This document shows, piece by piece, positions 3,990 through 41,025 of a stretch of DNA of 46,754 nt. The stretch's first letter is position 1. Every line of letters starts with the position of its first letter. Source of the DNA: Priapulus caudatus (lineage: Eukaryota > Priapulida > Priapulimorpha > Priapulimorphida > Priapulidae); the NCBI RefSeq assembly GCF_000485595.1, contig NW_014577277.1:77761-124514 (forward strand), written 5' to 3'. The position numbers were made by a program, and so were the translations under genes. The notes under the pieces are model-generated. The model was not told the DNA's origin and searched no databases. It saw only the letters and a list, made by a program, of their open reading frames with translations.

Positions 3990-4511
3990 TTGAAGTCTGA
4001 AAATGTAGCATTACGCATTACGCATTATGTAGACTATAAGTACTACGTTTTGTACTGTAGTAGTGTACAATTAATATTGATAATTTAACCCTTAAAAATA
4101 TATTTAAACATAGTATTACAAGCCTAGATCATAGCCGCGACTATAGTTGGTAATGTTTTTATTATTCTCCATCAATCGAGCGAGCAAGTTAAGTAATGAA
4201 ACGCTTTAAATTCCTGTCCATGCCATTTGTGTGCGTGCATGCCTGCATGCATGTACAAGTGTATGTGCGTTGTCGCTACATCACTATGGAGACAATTTTA
4301 TGAGATGTATATTTGTATTAATTTTCTGTCATTTTTTTTTAGTTTGCATATATTGCACTGTCTACCGGCCCTGGCGGTAATCTCGGCTTCAGATCTCCAT
4401 ACCAATAATTCACCACTAATGTGGTTTGCCTTGTCTATCCTTTCATTAAGAATAAGATGGGGAATTACTTGGGAGTTGTCATGATACGGTGCATACAAAC
4501 CAGCCATTGAG
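3990..4511. other. Intergenic, upstream of the AT-hook gene
   Basis: This is probable promoter and 5' UTR territory of the minus-strand gene beginning at 3989. I see no coding exon, CpG-rich promoter or named motif. A GCATGC-rich stretch lies near 4235-4250. Confidence 0.4.
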
Positions 4512-4708
4512 GCAGATAAGGTACGTCTATGTCACCCTGACCTCTGTTTGACCTGGCTCGTTTAGCTATTTCTGACTAATATATATATATATATAACATA
4601 TAATATATATAGGGTTAGGGTTAGGGTTAGAGTTAGGGTTAGGGTTAGTCAGAAATAGCTAAACGAGCCAGGTCAAACAGAGGTCAGGGGGACATAGACC
4701 CTACGAGC
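4512..4708. mobile_element. Telomere-core palindromic MITE, 9-bp TSD
   Basis: The 197-bp element is flanked by direct repeats GCCATTGAG at 503-511 and 709-717 (window positions 4503-4511 and 4709-4717). Inverted arms at 4525-4579 and 4645-4699 are almost perfect (both read GTCTATGTC inward, then CTGACC). The centre holds an AT run followed by degenerate TTAGGG repeats at 4611-4647. The termini GCAGATAAGG and GCTCGTAGGG resemble those of 40076-40389. The 9-bp TSD is typical of Mutator-like transposons. There is no coding capacity. Confidence 0.9.
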
Positions 4709-13946: not shown

Positions 13947-14461
13947 CTCCTGGAGTCATACCACATTTGAAATGCGGTTCCCATATAAGGGAATGGCTCT
14001 AAATTATTCATCTACAATTTCAAGTCGATCCGCATCTTCGCTGCTTATTAAAGGAGGTGTACAACAGTAAGCATCTGCAAATTGTTCACCGTTGCACTAT
14101 ATCATCTCTAGAAAATGCATTTTTTTTCGCAGAAATTCGGCATTAGAGTGCAATAATTTCCATTATGCACGCAAGGTAGATGCCTCATGGACGTCTAGAA
14201 AGCATTAGAAGTAAAATTGGTCTTGTTGTGTATTCGTGACATTCTGTCAGGTGGCGTAGCCACAACGAGCGGTTGGTCATTTTTGTCTTTGAAATGTGAT
14301 CGGACTAGTTTGTAAAAATTCGCGTCATAGAGCTGGCAAAAGTTTCAAGCGGGGCATAAAGCATGAATCTGTAGTTATTTAAGTGTATGTTGTGTAAGCG
14401 CAGTAACAGTGTGTTTTTAATTAATTTCTGGTCGATGCTTATTCAATTCAGGCCTGCCGCC

Positions 14462-14694
14462 ACTCGCAGCTAGGGCCTGCATACCTCCCAAATCCCATTG
14501 GTTGATACAAATCACATGCCTGAAACTCCTGTTTTAATAAAACTTTTATGGTGCATTGTGACCCTAACCCTAAGTGCTAACCCTAATCCGTAACCCTAAG
14601 TTCCCTAACCCTAACGCTACTTAAAATTTAATTACATTTGTATCAACCAATGGGAGTTGGGAGGTATGCAGGCCCTAGCTCAGTAGCTGCGAGT
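14462..14694. mobile_element. Telomere-core palindromic MITE with filled/empty site
   Basis: The host repeat reads GGCCTGCCGCCTATG at 12414-12428; here it is split by a 233-bp insert flanked by CCTGCCGCC at 14453-14461 and 14695-14703. Termini ACTCGCAGCTA are perfect inverted repeats. The arms continue with GGGCCTGCATACCTCCCAA and CCCATTGGTTGATACAAAT. The core at about 14561-14622 is degenerate CCCTAA repeats (variants such as CCCTAATCCGTAA). The 9-bp TSD suggests a Mutator-like non-autonomous element. Confidence 0.92.
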
Positions 14695-16466: not shown

Positions 16467-16542
<76 letters not shown>

Positions 16543-16576
16543 CGCACACACACACACACAACACACCACACACACA

Positions 16577-16607
<31 letters not shown>

Positions 16608-16656
16608 CCACACACACACACACAGCACGCATGCACAACACACACACACACACACC

Positions 16657-16702
<46 letters not shown>

Positions 16703-16851
16703 CACACACACACACACAAACACGCGCGCCTACACACACACCACACACACCACACGCACGCGCTACACACACACACACACACACGCGCGCGCGCGCACAC
16801 GCACACGCCACGCGCAACCCCCCCCCCCCCGCGCCCCCCCCACACACACAG

Positions 16852-16890
<39 letters not shown>

Positions 16891-16908
16891 CACACACACA
16901 CACACACT

Positions 16909-16944
<36 letters not shown>

Positions 16945-16965
16945 ACACACACACCCACACACACA

Positions 16966-17036
<71 letters not shown>

Positions 17037-17066
17037 ACCCACACACACACAACACACACACTCACA

Positions 17067-17124
<58 letters not shown>
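16466..17124. repeat. (AC)n microsatellite array, ~0.66 kb
   Basis: The array is almost pure CA/AC repeat with interspersed CG, CACG and poly-C interruptions (C-rich at about 16818-16840). Open frames through it encode only His-Thr or Cys-Val repeats and are not genes. Alternating purine-pyrimidine sequence of this length can adopt Z-DNA. Confidence 0.97.
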
Positions 17125-17127
<3 letters not shown>

Positions 17128-30952: not shown

Positions 30953-31605
30953 GTGCACGTACACGTGCGTGCTGCGTGCATGTGCACGTACACGTGCGTG
31001 CATGTGTGTGTGTGTGCGTGCGCACGTACACGTGCGGGCATGCGTGCGTGCATGTGCAGGTACACGTGTGTGCATGAGTGCGCTGGTGCGTACGTGCGTG
31101 TGTGTACACACTGTACAGACCTGTACACGTGCATGTGTGCATGCATGTGCACATAGACGTGCGTGCGTGCGTGTGCACGTACAACTGCGCGCATGCATGC
31201 GTGCGTGCGTGTGTATGTAAACGTACGTGCATGCGTGCGTGTGTGTGCGTGCGTGTGCACGTATACGTGCGTGCGTACATGTGCGTGCATGTGTGCGTGT
31301 GCACGTACCTGCGTGCGTGCTTGCGTGCGTGTGTACGTATACGTGCGTAAGTGCGTGCGTGTGCACTTACACGTGCGTACGTGCGTGCGTGCGTGCATGT
31401 GCATGTGCACGTACACGTGCGTGCGTGCGTGCATGTGCACGTACACGTGCGTGCGTGCGTGCGTGCGTACCTAGACGTGCGTGCATGCGTGCCTGCGTGC
31501 GTGCGCACGTGTGCAGGTACACGTTCGTGCGTGCGTGTGCACGTACACGTGCGTGCATGTGTGTGCGTGCGTTCATGCGTGCGTCCGTGTGTGTGTGTGT
31601 GTGTG
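30953..31605. repeat. CGTG-rich tandem array
   Basis: About 650 bp of alternating purine-pyrimidine sequence built from GTGC/CGTG/TACA units with a recurring longer core near TGCACGTACACGTGCGTGCG. Open frames in both directions are repeat artefacts (Cys-Val-Arg-Ala or Thr-His). It begins about 280 bp upstream of the SARAF start codon and contains many CACGTG E-box hexamers. Confidence 0.95.
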
Positions 31606-32819
31606 CAACAATGAAGTTGAACCAGATCCACATCTGACCTTTCACAACAGTTTTTAGATAGAGCCTACTAAGCCCGACCAGGCTGTGCGACGGATTGTCT
31701 ATACAGGATGTATTTACAGATTGTCTATACGGATTGTTATTTGGTATTCTAACCCTAGCAATACCGTTTCTTGGAGCTAGGGCCTACTAATCTGACAGCT
31801 GTATATTGTAAGGATTCCAATTTAGTACAGTTCTAAATAGCATAGGGGGATCTGCCTGGTGAAAAATATTTTAACCATGGCTTTACAGTCCAACTTACAA
31901 TCGTGATTACTACAAGTAGTAATCACAAGCTTGAGACAAAGTGACTTTACAAATAATTACTTTACAACTAGTAATTACGACCAGTCTGTCACTGACGCCA
32001 AGGGGTCGTTGTCGTAACAGATACTACAGATATGTACCCGAGGTACATATATGTATACACAAAGTGTACCAGACTTGTACTACAGAAGTGTATTCTAACC
32101 CTAACACTAACCCTAACCCTAACTCTAACTCTAACCCTAACCCTAAACATACCTCATATAAAAATATAAACATAATACTAAACAACCTAAAACTACCTCG
32201 GGTACATATCTGCAGGAGTAGATAATAGGGAAGGAGTGTGACATCAATAAACAAGGGAAATTCGTCATTTACTAGCCTTAAAATACCTACGATTTACTAC
32301 GCGTAACGCAACCAACTTGAGCTCAAATCGTACACAGTACATCCGCCTAGCATCGTGCGAAATCGTTTCCTCGTATACACCCGCAATCCGGAGATACAGA
32401 CTAAAACGTACAACACGATTTTCAATTCTGTTGCCAGCAAAATCCATGCGTTGAGAAAGCTATTTGAAACAAAAGGCAGCTACTAACCACACTGTCCACG
32501 GCTTGCGCTCACGGCGAGGCGCTGTGGCTCGCAGGGAGATTGGACATCGATAGATAGACATAGACATAGATAGACTCATGACGTGCTATTGTGCGGTCGG
32601 TTATACATGCTGCCGCTGAGCAGCAGAGCTGCTGCTGATTGCGGTGGGGGAGTGCATACCAGCTGTAAATAGGTCAAAACAAAGGTTAGCTCGCCGAGTG
32701 TTGCGTCGATGTCTAATCTCCCTGCGAGCCACAGCGCCTCGCCATGAGCGCAAGCCGTGGACAGTGTGGTTAGTAGCTGCCTTTTGTTTCAAATAGCTTT
32801 ATCAACGCATGGATTTTGC

Positions 32820-33014
32820 GGTTCAAGGATAGAGAACATGGGTCCCAATAAAACCAATGTTATTTACATCAATATAAATATAATATTATATCAATATAAT
32901 TAATAGGTTAGGGTTATGGTTAGGGTCAGGATTAGGATTAGGGTTAGGGTTAGAATTAGGGTTAGGGTTAGGCACATTGGTTTTATTGGGACCCATGTTC
33001 TCTATCATTGGGCC
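32820..33014. mobile_element. Nested telomere-core MITE
   Basis: Ends GGTTCAAGGATAGAGAACAT and GGCCCAATGATAG (complement) are inverted repeats. The core at 32906-32972 is degenerate TTAGGG. The opposite palindrome arm near 32430-32445 gives the unfilled site; GATTTTGC/GATTTTTC flank the insert as an imperfect TSD. Confidence 0.8.
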
Positions 33015-33198
33015 GATTTTTCTGGCAACAGAATTGAAAATCGTGTGGTGTATCTCCGGATTGCGGGTGTATACGAGGAAACGATTTCGCACGATGCTAG
33101 GCGGGTGTACTGTGTACGATTTGAGCTCAAGTAGTAAATCGTAGGTATTTTGAGGCTAGTAAATGACGAATTTCCCTTGTTTATTGATGTCACACTCC

Positions 33199-33409
33199 GG
33201 CCCAAGGATAGAGAACATGGGTCCAATAAAACCAATGTGCCTAAACTTAACCCGAACCCTAAATGGCCTAATTCTAACCCTAACTCTAATCCTAACCCTA
33301 ATCCTAACCCTAACCATAACCCTAACCTATTATATTGATGTAATATTATATTTATATTGATGTAAATTACATTGGTTTTATTGGGACCCATGTTCTCTAT
33401 CCTTGAACC
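33199..33409. mobile_element. Second nested telomere-core MITE, opposite orientation
   Basis: It has the same ends as the copy at 32820 (GGCCCAAGGATAG and complement GGTTCAAGGATAG) with a CCCTAA-strand core at about 33250-33330. CACACTCC at 33191-33198 and 33410-33417 is the TSD; the other arm at 32231-32250 shows the site without the insert. Confidence 0.82.
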
Positions 33410-33527
33410 CACACTCCTTCCCTATTAGTATTATCTTATCTACTCCTGATATCTGTAGACTGTAGTCTGTAGTCTGTAGACTGTAGTACCTGTTAGTAAC
33501 GACAACGACCCTTCGTGCGTCACTGAC

Positions 33528-34182: not shown

Positions 34183-35197
34183 CACAGCACGCACTTGGAA
34201 CGTCTCAATAAAAAAAATAATGGTAAATAAACACGAAATGTACCAAAGTCTTAATGTTTTTCTACTGTATTTCGCCTATAATCACCTGTAAATGCCGGTC
34301 AAATGCTCATCTGCAACACAAGTACACCGAACTCCCACCCGCGCTGTGCTGCGTGCACAAACAACATGAATAAGAGAGCAGGTAGGAAAGCGGGATTGAA
34401 AAATTTGCTCGACGCTCCCTTCATTTCACACGATCACAGAACGAAAAGACATCCAACGGCTTCCATCTTGGTATCTATGTGTACATAAATGTTCACTTGT
34501 TCGAATTATATCTCTGGCCTTTGTTCTTACCTACTCCCGCCAGAGATATCTCGTGAAATCCTGCAGAAAATGTTTTCTTTGTGAAAATGTAAAGAGGACG
34601 TATCATCCGAAAATCCCTAACGGCGCTACTTTTGATCGATCGCTGTAGTCGTGTGTGCGTGACGTCATTCCCGCGCGCATTGTGCTTGGATTGGCGGGCC
34701 TCGAAATGGAGCTCGGAGGCCAGCAGCAGCTCATCCCGGCATGCAATGCGCCCCATTACTCGTGTATAAACAGACATCTCGTCCTCTTTACATTTTCACG
34801 GAGAGAACATTTCCTGCAGGATTTCACGAGATATCTCTGGCGGGAGTAGGTAAGAACAAAGGCCAGAGTTATAATTCGAACAAGTGAACATTTATGTACA
34901 CATAGATACCAAGATGGAAGCTGTAGGATGTGTATTCGAGCTGTGATGGTGTGAAATGAAGCAAGCGTCAAACGAATTTTTCAATCCCGCTTTCCTACCT
35001 GCTCTCGTATTCATGTTGTTTGTGCACGCAGCACAGCGCGGTCGGGCGTTCGGTGTACTTGTGTGTTGCAGATGAGCATTTGACCGGCATTTACAGGTGA
35101 TTATAGGCGAAATACAGTAGAGAAACATTAAGACTTTGGTACATTTCGTGTTTATTTTCCTTTTTATTTTTTTATTGAGACATTCCAAGTGCCTGTG
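34183..35197. mobile_element. hAT-like foldback element, 8-bp TSD, long copy
   Basis: CTCAGATA flanks the element at 34175-34182 and 35198-35205. Ends CACAGCACGCACTTGG and (complement) CACAGGCACTTGG start inverted arms of roughly 400-450 bp that enclose a ~180-bp centre (34600-34780) with a perfect CRE at 34660-34667. The 8-bp TSD and CA..G start fit hAT-type elements; long arms give a foldback shape. There is no transposase frame. It shares ends and arm sequence (TGCTCATCTGCAACACA) with 36025-36648. Confidence 0.88.
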
Positions 35198-35273
35198 CTC
35201 AGATACTTCACTGAGCTCACAGTCATAGTGACAGTCGGACTTAGCTCTACTCTAGTCTCTAGACTCTAGTAGT

Positions 35274-35539
35274 GCTCAAGGGGTCGTTGTCGTAACAGGT
35301 ACTACAGATATGTACCCGAGGTACATATATGTATACACAAAGTGTACCAGACTTGTACTATAGAAGTGTACCTTAACTCTAACACTAACCCTAACCCTAA
35401 CCCTAACCCTAACGCTAACTCTAACCCTAACCCTAACCCTAAACATACCTCATATAAAAATATAAACATAATACTAAACAACCTAAAACTACCTCGGGTA
35501 CATATCTGTAGTACCTGTTACGACAACGACCCTTCGTGC
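35274..35539. mobile_element. Telomere-core palindromic MITE, simple copy
   Basis: TCTAGTAGT flanks the 266-bp element at 35265-35273 and 35540-35548. The arms read GGGTCGTTGTCGTAACAG then GTACTACAGATATGTACCC. The core at 35371-35449 has about a dozen CCCTAA-type units with variants such as CGCTAA and CTCTAA. It is the uninterrupted relative of 31997-33518. Confidence 0.9.
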
Positions 35540-36024: not shown

Positions 36025-36648
36025 CACAGGCACTTGGAGCGTTTCAATAAAATATAATGCTAAATAAATACGAAATCTATTTACTACCAAAGTCTTAATG
36101 TTTCTCTACTCTCTTTCACGTATTATTGCCGAAAATTTCCTGTAAATGCCGTTCAAATGCTCATCTGCAACACACGCTGGCTGCCGCACGCTAGCTGCTG
36201 CACACTGACACATAAATAAACAAAACAAAAAATATAAAAATGTAAAAAAAACTATATATTTATGGGTTAGTGTGCAGCAGCTAGCATGCGGCAGCCAGCG
36301 TGTGTTGCAGATGAGCATTTGGACGGCATTTACAGGAAATTGTCACATAAATATATAGTTATTTTTTATTTATTTAATATTTTTTTGTTTTGTTTATTTT
36401 TGACTCATATTGTGTTTTATTTTTTTATTTATTTGTTTGTTTAATTGTCATTTGTTTATTTATGTGTCAGTGTGCAGCAGCTAGCGTGCGGCAGCCAGCG
36501 TGTGTTGCAGATGAGCATTTGGACGGCATTTACAGGAAATAGTCGGCAATAATAGGTGAAAGAGAGTAGAGAAACATTGAGACTGGTAGTAAACAGATTT
36601 CGTATTTATTTAGCATTATATTTTATTGAAATGCTCCAAGTGCCTGTG
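36025..36648. mobile_element. hAT-like foldback element, 8-bp TSD, short copy
   Basis: CAACCAGC flanks the element at 36017-36024 and 36649-36656. Ends CACAGGCACTTGGAG are perfect inverted repeats and the arms run about 190 bp. A right-arm segment of ~75 bp (GTGTGCAGCAGCTAGC to TTTACAGGAAAT) is present twice, at about 36267-36341 and 36467-36541, separated by a T-rich stretch. The internal sequence differs from the copy at 34183. Confidence 0.9.
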
Positions 36649-37344: not shown

Positions 37345-40300
37345 ATGCCACCAATTCTCCCATCCTTGGAGACACCTGAAGAAGAGTCTCAAGGTAGCAT
37401 TGTTGATGATTTTAATGTAAACCAGATGGCAGCACAACAGCCAAGTTCATCTGACACAGATGAAGATGAGGAATTTGTAAGTTAGTCTGTGTTTGTCTAT
37501 ATTTTTATGTCCTTGTTTTGCCTTACAGCTATTTTGCACACTTATCATATCGTATCATATTCAGCTGTAAAATATAGGCTAGAAGCATGTCAGCCTGTCA
37601 CTTAGGTGAAGTGATTGTAGTATTATTGTAACAGTTCTAGGCAGAATTGATAAGCTAGAAATTAAAGGCATAATTCGACCATCGATTATGCAAAGTTGAC
37701 GAATGCTACAGTAACTGGCACCTTGTGTAGTTAATAAGTACATTACCTTATAGCCAAACGCGTATTAGTTTGTCCAATATCACTGCTAATTACTAAGAAA
37801 TGTCTAATTGAAATCCGTAAATTTGGTAATCTGGCGACAACGCGAAATTTATGGCCAACAAAATAAACATCGAGTTCGGTTCGGTGACGTCACATGTTGC
37901 TTAACGATGTTGAGCATCGAATTGTTTGTTCCGGGTAAATTGTTTGCCTAGTGTTATTATTTGCCTAGTTGCCACATATTATATGTTGCTTGTAATCTCA
38001 AGAACGTATATTCATTTATTCCCGAATCCCAAGAGTAAAACCATAACGTACGGAATGCGCACTCAGACTACAAGGATCGAAATCACTGACGGCCGAGCAT
38101 ACGTGCGAAAATGTCCGGTGCACTATAATCTGTATGACACCGCCTCGCCAGTTCTGGCCGGTTACAGCCGGCATGGCGGTTTGTAGCTGTCAACAACCGA
38201 TTTCTTGGACTGCGGATTTCAATTAGACATTTCTTAGTAACCAGCAGTGATATTGGACAAACTAATACGCGTTTGGCTATAAGGTAATGTACTTATTAAC
38301 TACACAAGGTGCCAGTTACTGTAGCATTCGTTAAAATTGCATAATCGATGGTCGAATTATGCCTTTAATAATGTTCAGTTGGTGTGTTCACAGATTCATG
38401 GAATTGGAGATACATATAGGACTAGACGTATGGCAAAATTGAGTATGGTTACAGCAGTATAACTGAGCTTTTGACCCAGGTCGACTCCCTGTTCTCAAAA
38501 CGAGAGAGATTATACACAGCAAAGTGAGGGTGTTTATGGTCTAAAGTTTAAAATTGCGGTTATCATTAACATATGAACAATAACCACCCAAATGACATAA
38601 ACTAATATATTGTATTATTTTGTGTGTGTAACATGCAATATGAGGCACTGAAATCACTACTTTATTCAATGGTTTTGGGTTTTGTTTATATTTAAAGTAG
38701 AATTTTCAGGGAGTCACACAAATTCCTGGTATTGTTAAATCAAGAACTCCTAATAGTAAGATGGAATATTTGATCCCACAGTCATGTTGGTTTTGACTTC
38801 TGTATGTAATGGCTTGAAATTTGCACATATTAGCTATCAAGGAAATATTAGACCTTGTACATTATTAAATCCATATACAGGCAGCCAATTTAGTGACGTG
38901 CCTCTAGTTAACTGCTATTACTTCTAATTCTGCTTCTGCTGACACGTATGGTTTTCGGTTTTATAGGTAGGAAATGGTGGTTACCAAATTCTTTCCCAAG
39001 AGCCTCCTTCACAAGTAGTCCATGAAAGTGTAGATGAATTTTTTGATCTGACGCATTCCACGTGTTCACCATCCACAACAAAAGTGAGCGATATTTTGAG
39101 CTTTTATTAGATGATATAGATGGTAGATCTATATTTTTCATCGTTACATCAGTTTATTATAACGTTATCTATATTATAATGTTCTGTATGTATATAGGGT
39201 CCTGATCAGGTGGATTGAGTTCAGTGGATCTGACTAATGAAACGATCAGTTCACGAGGTTTGTGTGACCCAGATCATATAATCCACCCAAAACAAACATT
39301 TCTCAATATCTGGCCAATTTCCAGACAGCTGTCACTTGCTGCCATCTGGTGGCTAGTAAATATAACTGACTACAGCTTGACAACGACAACAGACCGATTG
39401 TTGAACCTGTTGCGTTAGTGAAATTAGCGATTTATCGCAAAAAAGTAGAATAATTAAAACATTCATAAATATCGTCAATATTAATGTTATTTTCAATCTA
39501 ACATCCATATCCTGGGATGTAGTTTAATATTTAATATTCCTCTACAGTTAATTGTAACATGTCGTTTAGGTAGATGTGCATCCTGACATGCCAAAGAATG
39601 AGGAGGGATGGGCATCTGAAAATTGGAACACTCATCTTGGAATAAGCAGAGCTGAGCCTATGAATGAGGGTTAGTATGGTTAAAAGACTCTAGACTAAGC
39701 CTAATTTTTAAGGTCATAATCGGTGTTATCTTCACATTAGGTAATCTTTCACATTTAAGATTTACATATATATTAGATATATAGTAGGAATGCTAACCGC
39801 CGACGCAGACGAACGCAGGTGCATTGAATGGTGGACACGAGAATTGTGGTAATGATTTTTATTATCTCGCTTGTTAAAAAGTAAATTCATCTTAATCTCA
39901 TCCACACTCAAATTACGCATGACTCCATAAATCTGCCCTTTTCATGCATCGTCCCACTGCTCATGATAGCAGAATTGTGTACACTAACAGTGTATATATA
40001 TATATGAAGAGCTCTTTCCCAAAACACGATAAGCGCCAAATCCAAAAAAATTGGGTTTGCCATGCCAATACCAAGGCTGAGAGGGTCTATGTCCCCCGGG
40101 GTACTGCTGGAACGTACCCTGGGTACGGTCTGGTATACCGGAACGTACCCTGGTACTATCTAATATGCCGGACCGTACCTCGCCTACTCCACTAACGAGT
40201 CTAGGGAGTCGCCTACGCCTACTCCCTAAGCCGAACCCGAACCCTAACCCTAATCCTAACCCTAACCCTAACCCTAACCCTAATCCTAAACCTAACCATA

Positions 40301-41025
40301 TCAAATAGTGACCAGGGTACGTTCCGGTATACCGGACCGTACCCAGGGTACGTTCCGGCAGTATCCTGGGGGACATAGACCCTATGAGCAATACCAAGCC
40401 CCTAGATCACTCTACAACATTCCGTCTTTGTTTTCTTACAATTTGCGATATGTCCGTGTATATAATACACTAAGAAATACAGTTTCGTTCCATGCCGCGA
40501 TAATCACCATGCCCGTTTTATAGCTAATCGCAATATCTCCTCTCGACGAATCGGCGCATCGCATTTATCCAACATGGCGGCGCCCATAGCATAGGAATTT
40601 CGTGCACGTTTTTCGCCTTTCAGACGTCGATTTCTTGGGCAAAATGAATACTTTCGACGGTTCTGATGGGCAGGTGATGCTTTCGCCGGGCAGTAGAAAG
40701 CGTAGGTTAACCAAAGATGATCATAAACGAGAACAAAACAAGAAAATTTGCCATTCTGGCACCGATCTTTGGATTTAAATAGAGATTTGGAAAAGGAAAC
40801 AAATTATGGATATATAGCAGTTTGGAAAAAATTGATTAATTTTGGTTATGTAATCAACAATATTGTTGGAGGATTTAAATTTTATTCTTGACAATGTTCA
40901 TACTGATCAAACAAACTGCTTTTCCAGAAAAATAAGTATGTTGTTAAAATTTCTAGTTCAGGACAAAAAATGACATTTTTCATAAAACAATGAAAATGGA
41001 TTTATAGCGTTTTGGAAAAGAGCTC

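Follow-up and report, generated by a model that had tools for sequence, protein, structure and literature searches.

Several MITE families of Priapulus caudatus carry a telomere-type (CCCTAA)n core between their inverted arms, and transposition, more than end fusion or healing, placed most of the interstitial telomeric tracts that we sampled in this genome; we hold this reading at a probability of roughly 0.84. The window, as the term is used here, is the whole stretch of DNA analysed, 46,754 nucleotides of contig NW_014577277.1. It contains 65 telomere-like 12-mers (at most two mismatches, overlapping matches counted) against 2.34 expected and a maximum of 7 in 100 shuffles. As the original prediction had it, this telomeric sequence is concentrated in five palindromic elements, which hold 58 of the 65 12-mers and cover 2,532 of the 46,754 bases (5.4% of the window). 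The boundaries predicted for all five are exact, each element being enclosed by a perfect 9-bp TSD, and their reading as palindromic MITEs that have transposed, each with a core resembling telomeric repeats, is supported. These elements, and the palindromes that bear on them, are as follows.

40076..40389, plus strand: family F1 MITE with telomeric core; TSD AATACCAAG; arms of 79 nt, 92% complementary
40067..40075, no strand: left 9-bp TSD AATACCAAG of the F1 MITE
40390..40398, no strand: right 9-bp TSD AATACCAAG of the F1 MITE
40076..40154, plus strand: left inverted arm of the F1 MITE
40311..40389, minus strand: right inverted arm of the F1 MITE
40224..40297, minus strand: degenerate telomeric core of the F1 MITE, CCCTAA on the plus strand, about 12 units (Tandem Repeats Finder)
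4512..4708, plus strand: second F1-type MITE, telomeric core 4610-4648; TSD GCCATTGAG at 4503 and 4709
14462..14694, plus strand: family F11 MITE, interrupted telomeric core 14563-14614; TSD CCTGCCGCC at 14453 and 14695
35274..35539, plus strand: family F2 MITE, end GGGTCGTTGTCG, telomeric core 35370-35442; TSD TCTAGTAGT at 35265 and 35540
31997..33518, plus strand: F2 MITE, telomeric core 32095-32146, split by a later insertion; TSD GTCACTGAC at 31988 and 33519
32213..33448, plus strand: palindrome inserted in the F2 element, without a telomeric core of its own; ends CAGGAGTAGATAA/TTATCTACTCCTG, inverted arms I4, I6 and I10
32820..33014 (start and end approximate), plus strand: first nested F12 MITE, telomeric core 32906-32972; flanks GATTTTGC / GATTTTTC, one mismatch
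33199..33409, plus strand: second nested F12 MITE, telomeric core 33240-33327; 8-bp TSD CACACTCC at 33191 and 33410
36025..36648, plus strand: palindromic MITE without telomeric core, end CACAGGCACTTGG, 0 telomeric units; 8-bp TSD CAACCAGC

The F1 element at 40076..40389 returned at least 123 matches in a genome search (40 of 1,456 candidates scored, its own copy and separate arms counted). Its relative at 4512..4708 has the same end type (22 nt at 95%) and a different arm interior. The stretch 31997-33518, which had been put forward as a single element, is instead composite: an F2 relative, 90.5% identical to the element at 35274-35539 over 232 aligned columns, has been split by the core-less palindrome 32213-33448, which in turn carries two nested F12 elements. 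The inserted palindrome is flanked by a 7-bp ATATCTG repeat, read by eye from the flanks. The two nested elements, also anticipated, are real, with an exact 8-bp TSD at 33199 and flanks differing by one mismatch at 32820; in a by-eye comparison of the arms, the opposite arm of the host palindrome presents both nested sites without the insertion. Nine reading frames of the window gave no match in Pfam.

A telomere-like core is not universal among these palindromes, although it had been said always to be present: several palindromes of the window lack it, as do two of 20 F1 elements selected by their ends (see below). Besides 36025-36648, core-less palindromes lie, as judged from inverted arms, at about 34205-35190 and at 37661-38369. 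An end like CACAGGCACTTG recurs in 36025-36648, in the palindrome at about 34205-35190 and at L041:1540-1746, with an exact 8-bp TSD in two of the three and no telomeric cores; we take these palindromes to be hAT-like. The window also contains long simple-repeat tracts, CGTG-type and AC, at 30953-31606 and 16468-17125.

Across the assembly (385.2 Mb, 2,952 contigs), exact (TTAGGG)4 occurs at 1909 + 2007 overlapping positions, and the reversed-pattern control at 0 and 1. Taken in the order of the contigs, the first 100 of these places, all on C1-C6, gave 41 clusters in 39 stretches and a sample of 44 tracts, each with at least four exact hexamers. Inverted arms of at least 20 nt lie beside 22 of the 44, a raw count without a control, within which L059 and the second L068 tract depend on low-complexity or telomeric arms. 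When an exact 8-10 bp TSD was required together with inverted ends scoring at least 20, 14 of the 44 tracts qualified and none of 143 control positions from these loci; at a score of at least 9, the counts were 19 of 44 and 4 of 143. For one of the 14, the first L069 tract, the supposed TSD is a self-complementary internal word, leaving 13 sound cases, and 30 of the 44 tracts miss the strict signature. A library of twelve end types, built from the window and the same tract sample with no separate control set, places 27 of the 44 tracts between paired ends of a single type (the first L069 tract enters this count via the right end of a neighbouring element) and six next to one end. L047, L062 and L065, which were recognized by inverted arms, bring the number of tracts enclosed on both sides by arms or ends to 30 of 44. 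The original prediction had named, as the finding that would speak against it, a majority of tracts elsewhere without arms and TSDs. For arms the opposite was found, as these 30 tracts attest; the TSD part of the expectation held less widely, an exact TSD with strong ends accompanying only the 14.

The other sampled tracts are of several kinds. Five are one-sided or decayed by eye, namely L044, L049, L058, L066 (left flank outside the fetched stretch) and L059 (72% to F4). L043 and L061 have a repeat in common (92.7% over 150 nt) with no visible arms, and within it the telomeric tract comes after a possible coding start (ATGGCGGCGGTGGCGCC in L043). Of the remaining seven, the L071 tract and two in L057 belong to other repeats, and L046, L053, the second L068 tract and L074 fall into no group. 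At L057:1000-3500, TTAGGG pieces form part of a higher-order tandem repeat that adjoins F1- and F2-type elements. Elements with telomeric cores occur in every sampled contig, C1-C6, with copies elsewhere. A TSD-plus-ends scan of the window and the 39 loci produced 38 rows, against three in a reversed control; 13 were dropped as a self-complementary word within an arm. The 25 retained rows comprise 20 with a telomeric core, mostly the sampled tracts, and five without, these being the element at 36025 of the window and a single one from each of L039, L041, L069 and L076. In the window alone the same scan gave four with a core and one without.

Elements picked by their ends alone tell the same story for F1 in most cases. 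Exact matches to the F1 end pattern, which spans 22 positions with two degenerate, number 1332 + 1376 = 2,708 in the genome, and those to its reversed-pattern control 0. Among the first 100 places, 23 convergent pairs lay within 204-611 bp, of which 20 were fetched and three were already in the tract sample. The 20 elements measure 204-611 bp, 18 of them within 204-296 bp, and are non-coding by size. A telomeric core with the same flanks is present in 18 of the 20, or in 15 if at least two neighbouring exact hexamers are demanded; the two relatives without it (605-611 bp; L079, L087) have a different interior. Exact 9-bp TSDs bound 11 of the 20, and 13 with one mismatch allowed; L081 and L082 within this set are duplicates of one another. 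The F8 end has 90 + 104 = 194 exact matches genome-wide. Four of the eight convergent F8 pairs among 100 listed places were fetched, and all three short ones have an exact 9-bp TSD and the core. The fourth, a 2.4-kb pair (L120), was considered as an autonomous copy and rejected as composite, with reverse-transcriptase-like pieces by eye and no exact TSD; its longest frame is 176 aa. A 16-mer of the F1 end had 18 and 3 matches in prokaryote and viral collections, respectively, which we take as chance.

Twelve end types (F1-F12), some of them related, bear telomeric cores, with TSDs of 8 or 9 bp, rather than the single family with subgroups that had been proposed. TSDs of 8 bp occur in one F12 copy and two F7 copies, and the length is not constant in F9 (8 bp in L076, 9 bp in L129). 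Terminal inverted repeats, TSDs, high copy number and uniform size are all found, as in MITEs. An A-C/G-T centre characterizes 18 of 23 exact F1 TSDs and 4 of 4 exact F2 TSDs but none of the 11 others of 9 bp, which suggests that a single transposase may serve both F1 and F2. The end dinucleotides are GC in F1, F2 and F5, AC in F11 and 5'-GG in F3, F4, F7-F10 and F12; F6 is mixed. TSDs of Mutator/MULE elements are 8-11 bp long, mostly 9. Mobilization of the Mutator kind, as originally suggested, is compatible with the 9-bp TSDs, a length that is also found in other superfamilies, but no MULE transposase with matching ends was found at the single MULE-domain match read of 46. At that locus (C939, in L119) the F1 end does not occur within 3 edits, the F2 end occurs once at 3 edits, and short end motifs are weak and scattered; it encodes a ZSWIM1/3-like protein, and with no convincing F1 or F2 end we rejected it as a Mutator partner. 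The MULE-domain protein of C939 matches a Priapulus caudatus protein at 98% identity over 92% of the query. Merlin transposons, in the excerpted account of PMC8101967, have 5'-GG ends, 8- or 9-bp TSDs and internal tandem repeats, all of which recur in F3, F4, F7-F10 and F12. They differ from the GC ends of F1, F2 and F5 and the AC ends of F11, and the two Merlin loci read among 11 Merlin-domain matches (L124, L125) have no F1-F12 end within 3 edits and were rejected as Merlin partners.

The cores themselves change in steps of the hexamer. All 14 cleanly delimited F1 cores are multiples of 6 in length (12-54 bp, 2-9 units); these omit six of the 20 end-selected elements, namely one duplicate, the two without a core, L078, L091 and L094. 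The core of L078 has changed by other than whole hexamers. In the 14 clean cores 25 of 426 bases (5.9%) differ from CCCTAA, and the F1 arms are 6.2% and 8.0% off consensus; in a MAFFT alignment that includes one core-less relative, the core stands at 9.3% against the same arm values. The number of exact units per core ranges from 1 to about 20. Exact TSDs bound the few-unit copies L090, L091 and L094 and the core-less relative L079. The former suggest that a long telomeric tract is dispensable for transposition, and the core-less relatives L079 and L087 show that the core can be dispensed with. From these comparisons, the core appears to act much like a neutral microsatellite within a transposing unit.

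DNA next to the core is held in common by elements with different ends. F8 and F10 have 60 nt of core flank in common at 95%, and L042 combines F2 ends with F1-type core flanks by eye. The 20-mer TGATGCAAAAACCCTAACCC has 172 + 150 exact copies and is present in F5, F8 and F9 elements; eight out-of-sample loci picked by it comprise five F9 elements with both ends, two truncated F9 elements and one truncated F8 element. Core flanks common to different families point to few origins of the core.

In our reading, these are non-autonomous cut-and-paste MITEs of several families, each housing a short (CCCTAA)n microsatellite, which is inherited within the family, mostly gaining or losing whole hexamers and decaying like the rest of the element. 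Arms and core are observed together between TSDs, and their joint transposition would spread the tracts. Cores may have entered a few ancestral elements, perhaps at an internal break through telomerase or end-joining, and recombination or common descent may then have carried them from family to family. Movement would depend on transposases acting in trans on the element ends; among the one MULE and two Merlin loci, none has matching ends. If telomerase or end-joining instead added repeats at breaks during MITE birth by internal deletion, independently in several families, the core would lie at the junction. This would account for the same motif in several unrelated end types, and in three of the 15 elements measured (F1 at 40076, 4512 and the first F12) palindrome homology does stop at the tract on one side, with a gap of 0-1 nt. 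No side is constant, however, the abutting side being 5' of the G strand in F1 and 3' in 4512 and F12; the other 12 of 15 have unpaired DNA on both sides of the tract, and the flanks common between families argue for few origins. We consider such independent births unlikely, though with a real chance of being correct. If the tract had instead grown by slippage in every family separately, starting from chance seeds, its likeness to telomeres would be coincidental. This fits the hexamer-step length changes and the cores of one or two units, yet twelve end types of one genome, some of them related, have this hexamer in common, in a sample chosen by that hexamer, and slippage alone seems to us very improbable.

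Recurrence of one motif in several families could also reflect selection on the core, which might bind a TRF/Myb or POT1-type protein or form a single-stranded loop and so aid movement or persistence. Consistent with a loop, the single strand of 40076-40389 folds at -99.8 kcal/mol against -39.3 for shuffles (z -16.4), with paired arms around a tract that stays mostly single-stranded, but this hairpin forms because the arms are inverted. A selected role, which we judge distinctly unlikely, is weakened by the decay of the core, about as diverged as the arms, by its range of exact unit numbers, and by the short-core and core-less copies with exact TSDs. That the core is an exchangeable working module, on which telomere-binding or end proteins of the host would act (for example, at the hairpin loop) and which elements differing in their ends, and probably in their transposases, would acquire, is a long shot; if true, one MITE class would parasitize the telomere machinery, seeding interstitial telomeres in passing. 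Fusions, subtelomeric duplications or healing at random breaks, with MITEs adjoining by chance, could fit a minority of tracts, such as the L057 tandem repeat, L046, L053, the second L068 tract and L074, which lies beside a gap. As an account of the sample this is scarcely credible given the strict TSD-plus-ends score, reached by sampled tracts and by no control position, and the constant position and flanks of the core within F1, and it fails for the TSD-bearing F1 and F8 elements.

Elements with telomeric cores are real, and microsatellite-bearing MITEs are known. Two reviews (PMC6947457, PMC9659126) describe, in the parts available, MITEs with hitchhiking microsatellites, the (GTCY)n MITEs of Lepidoptera and Xmix/Xstir and miDNA4 of Xenopus. 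Like these, the Priapulus elements are non-autonomous inverted-repeat elements that bear and spread a tandem repeat; unlike what these parts describe, the repeat is a telomere-type hexamer, is carried by twelve end types in one genome and accounts for most sampled interstitial tracts. The MoTeR elements of Pyricularia also tie a mobile element family to interstitial telomeric repeats, but in the portion of PMC8381367 that we cite they are retrotransposons inserting in telomere repeats, with internal relics that lack TSDs, whereas the Priapulus elements are DNA-transposon-like, have TSDs, lie within contigs and hold the repeat inside. Interstitial telomeric tracts of Caenorhabditis elegans are likewise degenerate; the corresponding section of PMC9071541 reports them as plentiful on chromosome arms, judges an origin by head-to-head fusion unlikely and terms their abundance a mystery, whereas most of the tracts sampled in Priapulus have been assigned to a carrier. 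No description of telomere-type MITE cores was found among the titles and abstract beginnings listed from open-access literature, most subscription journals lying outside this scope, so that the telomere-type core seems new on a weak literature negative.

With carriers defined by ends, TSDs and families, the share of animal interstitial telomeres that is transposon cargo becomes countable. Our data caution that interstitial telomeric tracts should not be read by default as fusion scars, and they raise the question of why several MITE families in one genome hold the same hexamer.

A second kind of carrier may exist beside these MITEs. F3 holds a tRNA-SINE-like piece that terminates in the tract, and a tRNA-SINE-like repeat ending 3' in (TTAGGG)n is seen at L071:1815-2031 and L039:1814-2025, 84% identical over 218 nt with the tract included. 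The tRNA likeness comes from box A and box B motifs by eye; ARAGORN found no tRNA in the SINE-like piece. The L071 copy sits outside any arms seen, and the SINE-like repeat may therefore be a second carrier of interstitial telomeric repeats. In the F9 palindromes L127, L128, L129 and L131, and more weakly in L130, two tracts are arranged as CCCTAA - spacer - TTAGGG, the orientation that telomeric repeats have at opposite ends of a linear chromosome.
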